From Fibrobacter sp. (GTDB taxonomy: Bacteria > Fibrobacterota > Fibrobacteria > Fibrobacterales > Fibrobacteraceae): a DNA stretch of 57,211 nucleotides. The DNA lies in the NCBI GenBank assembly GCA_017503015.1, contig JAFVTX010000058.1, positions 1 to 57,211 of the forward strand, in the 5' to 3' direction. Under the pieces are notes generated by a model, which was given only the letters and a program-made list of their open reading frames with translations, had not been told where the DNA came from and made no database searches. The translations under genes and the position numbers were made by a program. Shown piece after piece: positions 43,245 through 46,336 of this stretch (its first letter is position 1; each line of letters opens with the position of its first letter).

Positions 43245-44546
43245 TTACGAGTGCAGGTATTCCACGATGGCGTCGTGGATGGTGGTGAACACTTCCCGCA
43301 GTTCCTCTTCGTCTTCTTCCAGGAGCGTCACGCGGAAGCCCTTCAGGTCGGTGCAGAAGCTGGTGCTGGGCACCACGCAGATGCCCTTCGCGCCTAGCAG
43401 GTAGTAAACGAAGCGGTAGTCCAGGTTCGTGGTCTTGCTGCACCATTCTTCCACCTTCTTCTTGATAATCGGGTTGTCGATTTTCAGCGTCTGGTGGCTG
43501 TTCAGCGTGCCTTCGCGGAAGATGATGGTGTTGTAGAACGCACCGTAGGTTGGGTTGAAGTACAGTTCCGGAATGTCTGAAAGTATTTCGTTGATGATGG
43601 CGCTACGGCGGCCAATCTTCTCGTTCAGCGCGGTGCGGTGCTCGATAAAGCGCGGATCGCCCAGCACGCGGGGAATGGTCATCTGCGGGAGCGTGGTGGA
43701 GCAGACTTCCACCATCTTGGCGTTGTCGATGGCGCGGCAGAAGGCGTCGAACTGTTCGTCCTTGTCGCGGTTGTAGTATTCGGCCCAGCCGCAACGAGCG
43801 CCCGGCCAGGGGTATTCCTTGGAGATTCCCTTCAGCGCGATGCCCGGAACGTCGCCGATGTATTCGGCCAGGGCGTAGGCGTGGGCGCCATTGTAGGTAA
43901 TCTTGTTGTAGATTTCGTCGCAGATGATGAACAGGTTGTAGCGCTTCGCGATATCCACGATTTTCTTGAGGATATCCAACGGATAGACCATGCCCGTCGG
44001 GTTGTCCGGGTTCAGCACCAGGATGCCCGCGATGCTCGGGTTGTACTTCACCTTGTTCTCGAGCTCTTCCAGGTCCGGATACCAGTGGTTTTCGGGCTGG
44101 AGGCTGTAGGTGATGGGGGCCGTGTGGGCGTGTGCCGCTTCGGCGGAACTGTGGGTGCTGTAGGCCGGGGCAGGTCCGATAATGCGGGTGTTCATGGAGA
44201 GCAGGCCGTAGATGGTGGCGATGGCGTCACCCAGGCCGTTGAAGAACAGGATGTCGTCCACGCTAATCTGCGCGACGCCCAGCTTGTTGTTCTCCTTCAC
44301 CAGGAATTCGCGGGTTTCCAGCATGCCCTTGGAGGGGCAGTAGCCGTAACTGCGGTTGGTCTTGACCAGGTCCACCACGATATCCTTGATCCAGTCGGGC
44401 AGCTGGCATTTCTTTTCGATAGGGTCTCCGATGTTTTCCCAGTGGATGGGGAGACCCAGGGCCTTGAGCTGGTTTGCCTTCTTCACGATCTCGCGGATTT
44501 CGTAAGAAAGTTCCTTGGCACCTTCGCTCAAAAGTCTTCTGCGCAT
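43245..44546 (-). CDS. Class I/II PLP-dependent aminotransferase (alanine/aspartate type)
   Basis: A 433-residue fold-type I aminotransferase. LNPDNPTGMVYP, the YNLFIICDEIY strand and KGISKEYPWPGARCGW with the PLP lysine are present. The length and the SYGYCPSKGMLETREFL segment suit alanine- or aspartate-type enzymes of amino-acid metabolism, but the substrate cannot be decided from sequence. AGGAG lies before the ATG, with an AT-rich leader of about 90 bases. Confidence 0.88.
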   Translation of the reverse strand: MRRRLLSEGAKELSYEIREIVKKANQLKALGLPIHWENIGDPIEKKCQLPDWIKDIVVDLVKTNRSYGYCPSKGMLETREFLVKENNKLGVAQISVDDILFFNGLGDAIATIYGLLSMNTRIIGPAPAYSTHSSAEAAHAHTAPITYSLQPENHWYPDLEELENKVKYNPSIAGILVLNPDNPTGMVYPLDILKKIVDIAKRYNLFIICDEIYNKITYNGAHAYALAEYIGDVPGIALKGISKEYPWPGARCGWAEYYNRDKDEQFDAFCRAIDNAKMVEVCSTTLPQMTIPRVLGDPRFIEHRTALNEKIGRRSAIINEILSDIPELYFNPTYGAFYNTIIFREGTLNSHQTLKIDNPIIKKKVEEWCSKTTNLDYRFVYYLLGAKGICVVPSTSFCTDLKGFRVTLLEEDEEELREVFTTIHDAIVEYLHS

Positions 44547-44644
44547 TTTATGCTCCTATATAGGTATCGTAAATTCTCAAATTTTACTGCGTAATTATAG
44601 AATAATAAAACAGTGAAATTTCTTTAAGTTAATGGTTTGGGGTA

Positions 44645-44674
44645 TGAAAAAAGCAGCCTTTTACGGGGCTGCCC
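44645..44674 (-). terminator. Intrinsic terminator of the 36-residue gene
   Basis: On the minus strand GCAGCC and GGCTGC form a stem across CCGTAAAA and run into TTTTTT. It lies about 30 bp after the stop at 44702. Confidence 0.82.
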
Positions 44675-44701
44675 TTGAAACTTGCTATCTGGATTTTGGC
44701 G

Positions 44702-44812
44702 TTATGCCTTACAGACCTTGGTTTCTCTGGACAGCCCCACAATAGCTCGGGCTGCTGCCGGGCTTGCTGCCATTGCCGCTGCTGCGATGTTCTGTCCAAA
44801 GAATTTATTCAT
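44702..44812 (-). CDS. Leaderless small protein gene, 36 aa
   Basis: A short open frame encoding MNKFFGQNIAAAAMAASP and then AAARAIVGLSRETKVCKA. It is supported by a full set of signals rather than by homology: a perfect TTGACA-17-TATATT promoter whose -10 ends seven bases before the ATG, and an intrinsic terminator behind it. The product is alanine-rich and amphipathic, with a basic C-terminus, and has no recognised family. A small regulatory RNA that happens to contain this frame is the main alternative. It diverges from the composite repeat and structured RNA to its right. Confidence 0.6.
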   Translation of the reverse strand: MNKFFGQNIAAAAMAASPAAARAIVGLSRETKVCKA

Positions 44813-44819
44813 GTGCAAA

Positions 44820-44848
44820 AATATAGTTCCAGGTGCAGAAGTTGTCAA
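44820..44848 (-). promoter_or_regulatory. Promoter TTGACA-17-TATATT of the 36-residue gene
   Basis: On the minus strand TTGACA (44843-44848) and TATATT (44820-44825) are spaced exactly 17 bp, the same as in lexA. The start codon at 44812 follows after seven bases, giving a leaderless mRNA. Confidence 0.8.
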
Positions 44849-44850
44849 GA

Positions 44851-45077
44851 GGGGGAGGTCTCCCCCTGATTGCAGCCTTGCCTCGTTGAGTCACATCCCT
44901 GCGTGCCATTCTTGCCATCCCCGCGCATCCTTCGTTGTCATCCCCGCGCATCCTTCGTTGTCATCCCCGCGCATCCTTCGTTGTCATCCCCGCGAAGGCG
45001 GGGATCTCCCTTCATCTACCCACTCGGCAAGTCTTCCATCACCCCCACGCCTAGGGGCGTAGCCCCTAAAACCCCTG
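44851..45077 (+). repeat. Composite intergenic repeat, rearranged copy
   Basis: The left end GGGGGAGGTCTCCCCC and the right end CCTAGGGGCGTAGCCCCTAA followed by AACCCC match the ends of the ~100 bp element at 36177. The middle is replaced by a 23-bp tandem repeat and a REP-like palindrome (44983-45007). From 44813 to 45352, a stretch of 540 bp without a gene on the plus strand, the only contents seen are the promoter above, this repeat, an AT-rich part and the structured RNA at 45188. Confidence 0.7.
44917..44997 (+). repeat. 23-bp tandem repeat, about 3.5 copies
   Basis: The unit ATCCCCGCGCATCCTTCGTT plus GTC is repeated head to tail from 44917, 44940 and 44963; the fourth copy diverges into the palindrome ATCCCCGCGAAGGCGGGGAT. 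The copies are nearly identical, so the array is young. Confidence 0.85.
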
Positions 45078-45187: not shown

Positions 45188-45333
45188 CGAAAAGCCGTAT
45201 TGCTATATCCCATAGCAACCGGAATGGTTGCGGGCTATGGAAATACGGCTTTTGTGCTTTTAGCACAAAGTCCAGCGGCTCGGAAGTGTTGATGCAAGCA
45301 TCAACGTTTCACTCGCCTTGGGGGCTTTTTTTT
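45188..45333 (+). ncRNA. Structured RNA ending in a terminator, upstream of an ORF6N/PLD gene
   Basis: About 145 bases with several strong stems: an 11-bp outer stem AAAAGCCGTAT/ATACGGCTTTT (45190-45253) enclosing CCATAGC/GCTATGG and AACC/GGTT; TTTGTGC/GCACAAA (45251-45269); GTTGATG/CATCAAC (45288-45305) inside a longer stem that closes as AAGTCC/GGGGCTT and runs into eight T residues. Some arms can pair alternatively (TGCTAT/ATAGCA; the TTT shared by two stems). It may be a stand-alone RNA or a leader that attenuates the gene at 45353. No known RNA family was recognised. Confidence 0.55.
45268..45333 (+). terminator. Terminator at the end of the structured RNA
   Basis: A long branched stem closing with AAGTCC/GGGGCTT is followed by TTTTTTTT. 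It ends 20 bases before the ORF6N gene start, so that gene needs readthrough or its own start. Confidence 0.6.
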
Positions 45334-45352
45334 GTTTTGAAATGGAGGAAAA

Positions 45353-46336
45353 ATGACCAAAAAGGCCGAAAAGACGGAGATTGTGACGACAAATCCTCTC
45401 GTGGAATCGGGAGTGGAAAAGATGATTCAGGTTATTCGGGGCAAGCAGGTGCTGCTTGACCGCGACCTGGCGATGCTTTATGGCGTGGAAACGAAACGTA
45501 TCAACGAGCAGGTAAAACGTAATATCGAACGGTTTCCCGAGGAATTTTGCTTTCGGTTAGACCGAGATGAAATTGAATTCGTGAAGTCGCAACTTGCGAC
45601 TTCACGGAAAGAAGGGTTCTTTTCGGGACAAAAAGGCGGAGGTCGTAAAAATCCCTATGCCTTCACCGAACAGGGGGTAGCGATGTTATCTACCGTTTTA
45701 CACAGTGAAAAAGCGATAAAGGTTAGCATCGACATAATGAAAGTTTTCGTCGCAATGCGGCATTATATGCTTGCGAATGGTGGGCTGGTTAATCGGCTTT
45801 CTAATGTGGAGTCCAAAATTTTGGACCATGATCGCAAAAACATCGAATATGATCGCAAATTTGACGAGGTTTTCGAAGCGATGGACCGGGGAGAACTCAA
45901 GTCCAAGGGGTTGTTTTACAATAATCAGGAGTTTGACGCCTATGTGTTCGTTTGTGACCTGATTCGCAGCGCAAAAAAGAGGATTGTTCTTGTTGACCGC
46001 TATGTAACCGAAAAGACGTTAACCATGATGCTCAAGCGGGAGAAAGGTGTTTCCGTTACCATTTACACCTACGACAAAAGTAAGGTTTTAGAGATGGATT
46101 TGGCAACCTACAACGAGCAGTATCCCGACAGTCCAATGCGGGTCCTGCCAAGTTATGGTATGCACGACAGATTTTTGTTCATTGACGAGGTTGCTTATCA
46201 TTTTGGGGCGTCGTTGAAAGATTTGGGCAAGAACACATTTTTCTTTACACAAGAAGATTTTACACTAGAGGAAGTGCTGAAGGAGTCGCAGAAGATTCAG
46301 GACGCATTATCATCTCCGCCGACCTCTAAAACCTAG
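45353..46336 (+). CDS. ORF6N domain protein with PLD-like C-terminal domain
   Basis: A 327-residue accessory protein. Residues ~22-115 are an ORF6N domain (VIRGKQVLLDRDLAMLYGVE; RFPEEFCFRL), a DNA-binding module of phage and mobile elements. A coiled-coil-like link (residues ~140-175) leads to a PLD-type domain: HDRFLFID (His271, Asp278), then GAS, fits HxKx4D...GxS with arginine in place of the catalytic lysine. GGAGG precedes the ATG, and the structured RNA lies immediately upstream. Its base composition is more AT-rich than the neighbours. Similar ORF6N proteins occur widely in gut bacteria; a role in defence or gene regulation is possible but unproven. Confidence 0.85.
   Translation: MTKKAEKTEIVTTNPLVESGVEKMIQVIRGKQVLLDRDLAMLYGVETKRINEQVKRNIERFPEEFCFRLDRDEIEFVKSQLATSRKEGFFSGQKGGGRKNPYAFTEQGVAMLSTVLHSEKAIKVSIDIMKVFVAMRHYMLANGGLVNRLSNVESKILDHDRKNIEYDRKFDEVFEAMDRGELKSKGLFYNNQEFDAYVFVCDLIRSAKKRIVLVDRYVTEKTLTMMLKREKGVSVTIYTYDKSKVLEMDLATYNEQYPDSPMRVLPSYGMHDRFLFIDEVAYHFGASLKDLGKNTFFFTQEDFTLEEVLKESQKIQDALSSPPTSKT

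Follow-up and report, generated by a model that had tools for sequence, protein, structure and literature searches.

What is the use of a promoter, a 36-codon open reading frame (ORF) and an intrinsic terminator packed one after the other into about 200 bp? This question is raised by positions 44,645 to 44,848 of a 57,211-nucleotide stretch of Fibrobacter sp. DNA (contig JAFVTX010000058.1), which in its full length is here called the window. An earlier note saw at this place a complete minimal gene, starting without an untranslated leader and encoding an Ala-rich amphipathic peptide, and did not mention that an aminotransferase gene lies directly downstream in the same direction. The comparative analysis presented here indicates that the element is very probably an alanine-responsive, ribosome-mediated transcription attenuator, the leader peptide of which would be read from a leaderless transcript and which would control an alanine-type aminotransferase. 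In order of transcription, the features to which the text refers are the following.

44820-44848, minus strand: promoter P1, with TTGACA (44848-44843), a 17-nt spacer and TATATT (44825-44820), matching the consensus at 11 of 12 positions
44702-44812, minus strand: leader peptide ORF MNKFFGQNIAAAAMAASPAAARAIVGLSRETKVCKA, 36 codons, ATG at 44812, TAA ending at 44702
44792-44803, minus strand: segment 1 TTCTTTGGACAG, codons 4-7, pairing with segment 2 (putative protector or anti-antiterminator)
44744-44785, minus strand: putative regulatory region, codons 10-23, with 10 Ala codons out of 14, mainly GCA
44721-44738, minus strand: segment 2 GGGGCTGTCCAGAGAAAC, codons 25-31, pairing with segment 1 or segment 3
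44687-44716, minus strand: small hairpin GTCTG...CAGAT around the stop codon, between segments 2 and 3 (minimum-free-energy fold)
44665-44681, minus strand: segment 3 GTTTCAAGGGCAGCCCC, 3′ half of the putative antiterminator and 5′ arm of the terminator
44647-44674, minus strand: intrinsic terminator GGGCAGCC-CCGTAAAA-GGCTGC-TTTTTT (minimum-free-energy fold), made of the 5′ arm GGGCAGCCCC, a loop, segment 4 GGCTGC (44658-44653) and the U tract (44652-44647)
44594-44599, minus strand: TATAAT, -10 box of a candidate second promoter, inside an inverted repeat of the GAAATT...AATTTTC type (found by eye)
43245-44546, minus strand: AlaA-like pyridoxal-phosphate aminotransferase, 433 aa (NCBIfam PRK06855, 696 bits)

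Promoter, Leader Frame and Downstream Gene

The basic parts described before, that is, TTGACA-17-TATATT, an ATG 7 nt after the -10 box, a frame of 36 codons and an intrinsic terminator, were all confirmed on the minus strand. Promoter P1 outranks the other four of the five promoter-like sites found in a scan of 3.5 kb and, given the 7 nt between its -10 box and the ATG of the window copy, the 5′ end of the mRNA should lie at or adjacent to the AUG. Read on the minus strand, positions 44674-44647 give GGGCAGCCCCGTAAAAGGCTGCTTTTTT, the terminator 3′ of the leader ORF, which was absent from the output of a simple terminator scan though present in the minimum-free-energy fold. The RNA beginning at the AUG folds with -57.7 kcal/mol, compared with -46.8 kcal/mol for shuffled sequences (z -2.8), and the small hairpin around the stop codon is formed instead by GTCTAA...TTAGGC in some divergent copies, as read by eye. 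The aminotransferase gene starts 100 nt past the U tract, on the same strand as the leader. No second copy of the leader was found in the same genome, and no phage match was found for the element.

Regarding the downstream gene, the PRK06855 model carries only the name "pyridoxal phosphate-dependent aminotransferase", and the second-best model, the "alanine aminotransferase" PRK08363, gives 180 bits versus a cut-off of 534. The best PDB match of the protein is the glutamate-pyruvate aminotransferase AlaA of E. coli (4cvq, E 5.6e-42), so that the regulated Fibrobacter enzyme can be called AlaA-like; we know of no attenuator before the alaA gene of E. coli itself. The codons of the leader suggest that the product of the enzyme is alanine, and the match between the AlaA-like family and the amino acid that would be sensed counts in favour of an alanine attenuator.

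Distribution and Synteny within Fibrobacter

Of 80 Fibrobacter genomes, 58 gave a protein match to the ORF (59 at E ≤ 0.5, minus one at chance level with E 0.27), including 34 of the 40 high-quality genomes of the genus; most of these relatives are represented by metagenome-assembled genomes from the rumen or gut. When 101 relatives were searched with DNA and protein queries, the leader was confined to the genus, with weak, chance-like protein matches beyond it (E 0.16-0.92). The statement that the peptide has no known relative holds for Pfam and NCBIfam, but relatives do exist across the genus. Boxes of the type TTGA(C)-N-TATATT are repeated among them, followed by a start codon that is either ATG or, in several copies, GTG. 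This codon lies 7 nt past the -10 box in nearly all of the 44 leaders read, and about 9 nt past it in three divergent copies. Such a near-constant spacing implies a leaderless transcript, and in this respect the leaderless start advanced earlier fits nearly every copy.

The genomic context is equally constant. All 44 leader loci lie directly upstream of the same aminotransferase and co-oriented with it, and the terminator was found 3′ of the leader in the relatives read. From leader start to aminotransferase start there are 265-500 nt where the N-terminus of the enzyme is aligned (the 226 computed for locus L032 is not a true start distance, the alignment beginning at residue 22). The same architecture is shown by three deeply divergent copies (L255-L257), with aminotransferases about 75% identical. 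These three are the exceptions among many homologues of 60-80% identity, upstream of which no leader was detected; neither was one detected 5′ of the aminotransferase homologues read from beyond the genus. As the promoter, start spacing, frame and terminator are repeated in dozens of Fibrobacter genomes, their combination is, as judged from sequence comparison, far above chance.

Signature of Translation and Alanine Codons

In the 37 leaders of the main clade, segments 1 and 2 are separated by 54, 57, 60, 63, 66, 72, 81, 84 or 87 nt, nine distances that are all divisible by three (the one of L062 was taken directly from its sequence, the others by script). The main-clade insertions are Ala-rich (AADARIAANAAMAK and similar), with lengths that are only multiples of three. 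Together with the near-fixed ATG/GTG spacing, these distances indicate that the leader frame is almost certainly translated.

Each leader contains 9-15 Ala codons, located mainly between segments 1 and 2. In the window copy they make up 11 of the 36 codons, compared with 9.1% in the local background (binomial p 2.4e-4). A bias for a rare codon is present as well: GCA accounts for 8 of the 11, versus 13.6% in 30 long ORFs of the window (p 1.6e-5). The expected reader of this codon, tRNA-Ala(UGC), was not found among the tRNAs scanned, in which GGC and CGC were present; we suspect that the assembly has a gap at the rRNA operons.

At the protein level, conservation is lacking in the C-terminal half of the peptide. 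Segment 2 of the horse-gut clade is found 67 nt from segment 1 and consequently in another reading frame, and the C-terminus there reads SCATVQEL versus GLSRETKICKA elsewhere, with the RNA pairing of segment 2 retained. What remains conserved throughout are only the Ala codons, with the Ala run staying in frame, and the RNA segments. Since the horse-gut clade retains the pairing and the Ala run but not the C-terminus, two features, both probably under selection, can be told apart, the Ala codons as a sensor and the RNA segments as a switch.

Alternative Helices in the Leader RNA

The core of segment 1 that is complementary to segment 2 is TTTGGACAG, in codons 5-7. Segment 3 follows the layout GTTTC-AA-GGGCAGCCCC, in which the second part doubles as the 5′ arm of the terminator, and its two partners, segment 2 and segment 4 (GGCTGC), are mutually exclusive. 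Alignment rows were anchored on CTGTCC and GGGCAG, so that the invariance of the core pairs is partly by construction, whereas the flanking pairs are free. In 25 distinct rows, 96.4% of the cells of helix 2:3 are paired, versus 37.6-53.2% when the strands are slid, and 10 cells are changed on both sides, a count reached by none of 500 shuffles. These double-sided changes occur in three lineages and include G-C to A-U, C-G and U-A; loci L255 and L257 carry the helix as UCGACUGUCC:GGACAGUCGA. In the horse-gut clade, the second part of the antiterminator goes from GAAAC:GTTTC to GAATT:AATTC, a direct reading with the register shifted by one that stays outside the formal count. Helix 1:2 is paired in 93.5% of the cells (25 distinct rows), with a covariation only slightly above that of slid controls, and shows a double change in the horse-gut clade, from GGACAG:CUGUCC to GAACAG:CUGUUC (G-C to A-U).

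A further control came from shuffling the codons of the ORF, which preserves composition and peptide content. None of 1000 shuffled window ORFs matched the observed duplex energy with segment 3, and in seven other copies 0 to 4 of 1000 did so; by locus, the count was 0 of 1000 in L031, L042 and L047 and 0-4 of 1000 in L065, L067 and L255-L257. In two horse-gut copies the duplex was modestly above the codon shuffles (55 and 72 of 1000 match). An antiterminator helix 2:3 that excludes the terminator is therefore supported both by compensatory changes and by the codon-shuffle control. The description of the locus as a complete minimal gene is not supported: its presumably conditional terminator stands before the aminotransferase, and a segment of the ORF itself is complementary to it.

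Proposed Mechanism of Attenuation

In the mechanism that we propose, RNA polymerase would start at P1, the AUG would be the first codon of the RNA, and the ribosome would load directly there. When charged tRNA-Ala is scarce, the ribosome would stall on the GCA-rich Ala codons and cover segment 1, so that segment 2 is available to segment 3 and both form the antiterminator, and the aminotransferase would be transcribed. When alanine is plentiful, the ribosome would pass over segment 2, segments 3 and 4 would pair, and transcription would stop after about 165 nt. If the ribosome is absent, the 1:2 helix could serve as protector.

Nascent RNAs were folded in silico without segment 4, with a ribosome assumed to block 13 nt on the 5′ side of the P site and 14 nt on its 3′ side. 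A ribosome whose A site holds one of the early Ala codons gave helix 2:3 a mean probability of 0.96 (44 copies); in the window copy, an A site placed at codons 23-33 brought this probability to 0.00. The outcome follows the logic of trp attenuation, with alanine replacing tryptophan. A ribosome at the stop codon gave a mixed outcome (mean 0.23 for 2:3), and with no ribosome the equilibrium favoured 2:3 (mean 0.73) over 1:2 (0.13) in most copies. The branch in which lack of translation leads to termination is thus unsupported by folding and would need kinetics; more generally, the outcome in these two states (ribosome absent or at the stop codon) would be set by the kinetics of folding and by the release of the ribosome.

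Alternative Explanations

The same conserved start, frame and Ala-rich sequence that speak for translation are also the coding signature expected of a functional small protein of 36 residues, amphipathic and encoded by a stand-alone gene that the terminator just ends. Such a gene, however, would not account for a leader that always lies directly upstream of one aminotransferase, nor for an ORF length ranging from 33 to 45 codons. The C-terminal third, moreover, is unrelated in the clade in which the frame of segment 2 differs but the RNA pairing is kept, and the complementarity of the ORF to the terminator goes far beyond the codon-shuffle expectation. All this makes a stand-alone gene very improbable. 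A small functional protein was rejected because, over the C-terminal half, the RNA is conserved but the protein sequence is not, and the Ala-rich product is most likely a leader peptide rather than an amphipathic effector.

Translation could also be coupled to termination by a signal other than alanine, such as a general slowdown, an antibiotic or nascent-chain arrest. The SPAAARAI stretch of the peptide, nearly invariant in the main clade, would agree with an arrest sequence, but its conservation can be explained by the RNA pairing with segment 2, and in divergent clades it is altered to GAAEARAC or SAAAARAS while the Ala codons stay. As these codons fit the enzyme family and the trpE leader described below follows the same logic with Trp, we regard another signal as very improbable. 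Most improbable of the three is a non-coding RNA with an incidental ORF, either an sRNA gene or a terminator that works independently of the ribosome, riboswitch-like or otherwise: the strong conserved structure and the predicted terminated product of about 165 nt would suit it, but frame-preserving indels and the conservation of the start codon argue that translation matters. The window contains no match to an Rfam family at or above the gathering score; below it, the one bacterial RNA matched is NsiR4 (21.4 of 40 bits), and this match covers just the terminator end. A known RNA family was rejected too, the sub-threshold Rfam matches being a terminator look-alike and plant snoRNAs.

Leader Gain and Loss and a Candidate Second Promoter

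The presumed alanine attenuator is not present in every genome that has the enzyme. In 14 genomes of the genus the aminotransferase was found and the leader was not detected, from which we conclude that the leader is dispensable; some of these absences may be assembly artefacts, and G039, scored absent, is cut by a contig end. On the aminotransferase tree, the presence or absence of the leader changes at least nine times, as forced by well-supported branches, which suggests its repeated loss. Terminator-like remnants are retained in G012, G027 and G040. At the loci of the last two genomes (L092 and L096) there is no leader ORF and a terminator-like hairpin still lies upstream of the aminotransferase, which in G040 is nearly identical to that of the leader-bearing G058.

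The candidate second promoter is located 3′ of the terminator and has no good -35 box. Since it lies beyond the terminator and a similar box is kept in leader-less genomes, the attenuator may govern only part of the expression of the aminotransferase. Around it, at 44550-44625 on the minus strand, the arms of the inverted repeat seem by eye to co-vary in other genomes, from TTCTT/AAGAA to TTCAC/GTGAA, and this repeat with its TATAAT is a possible operator or second promoter.

A Tryptophan Leader and Other Features

In the same genome, trpE is also preceded by a short ORF, MMNFVTCATLNRRWWRGL, which ends in NRRWWRGL (L182, contig C54 of G000, about 1125-1330). Its promoter is TTGCCG-17-TATCTT, the ATG comes 7 nt later and a GC-rich hairpin stands before trpE. 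Of the 80 genomes of the genus, 63 contain DNA similar to this leader (E ≤ 0.001), and Trp-Trp is kept in the ORF of the 20 loci read. The trpE leader shares with the alanine leader the genome, the leaderless promoter-ATG spacing and the GC-rich hairpin before a biosynthetic gene, and differs in its Trp codons and in its leader peptide. It can be considered a candidate leaderless trp attenuator and, judging from these two leaders, Fibrobacter appears to employ leaderless ribosome-mediated attenuation at more than one place. No His leader was seen upstream of HisG.

A genome-wide search for TTGA-N18-20-TATATT followed by ATG 5-9 nt later gave 12 hits, most of them at the start of a long ORF (L110-L120 and L078, on several contigs of G000), and the reversed pattern gave none. 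Besides the leader, short-ORF matches of the pattern were L080, L081 and L120. In Fibrobacter, genes that are leaderless or nearly so may be common. Closer to the locus, short direct repeats CCCCGCGCATCCTTCGTTGTCAT in about 3-4 copies adjoin the upstream side of the leader (44910-45005), and inverted repeats GCCGTATTGC...AATACGGC with a T run (45190-45345) are found directly upstream of an ORF6N-domain gene (45353-46336), of which this region looks like a structured leader.

Relation to Known Attenuators

As in the trpL, hisL, leuL, thrL, ilv and pheA leaders of enterobacteria, the Fibrobacter leader has an ORF with codons for the presumed end product and, as in the trp-type attenuators of these bacteria, potential protector, antiterminator and terminator helices just before a biosynthetic gene. 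Unlike the latter, it would sense alanine and have a leaderless start, and it belongs to the phylum Fibrobacterota. A bias in leader codons is known for the trp-type class, and alanine is not included among the attenuated operons of E. coli and Salmonella treated by Elf and Ehrenberg (PMC1183508). The leaders of trp, ilv, leu, cys and hisS in Actinobacteria and Firmicutes are also similar, with a short ORF, runs of regulatory codons and usually a terminator (PMC1262725, PMC2965389); the word "alanine" is absent from both publications. According to Naville and Gautheret, leader-peptide systems were known in 2010 only in Proteobacteria and Actinobacteria, to which these authors added the Firmicutes (PMC2965389).

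A leaderless leader peptide has a precedent in the trpL attenuator of Sinorhizobium meliloti (rnTrpL/peTrpL), in which the start codon ATG of the leader ORF forms the 5′ end of the RNA (PMC7298713), although that system differs in its amino acid (tryptophan), its target (trpE(G)) and its class (Alphaproteobacteria). Trans-acting roles have been reported for both the sRNA and the peptide of S. meliloti (PMC7298713). By analogy, there is a slim chance that the terminated RNA of about 165 nt, the Ala-rich peptide or both also act in trans on other genes; if so, the alanine switch would be a dual cis and trans regulator, whose products would be made when alanine is plentiful.

A search of open-access papers for alanine attenuators found nothing relevant. 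As far as the searched literature shows, an alanine leader-peptide attenuator has not been described, nor has leader-peptide attenuation in Fibrobacterota, and what we propose would extend an established mechanism to a new amino acid and a new phylum, with good comparative evidence. If this is correct, a textbook mechanism gains one amino acid and one phylum, and alanine is predicted as the product of PRK06855, a family that has only a general name. Within this single genus the leader is absent again and again, which offers natural comparisons. The proposed attenuator would also suggest that, in rumen fibre degraders, at least two operons (those for alanine and trp) have leaderless mRNAs that can carry ribosome-timed attenuation.
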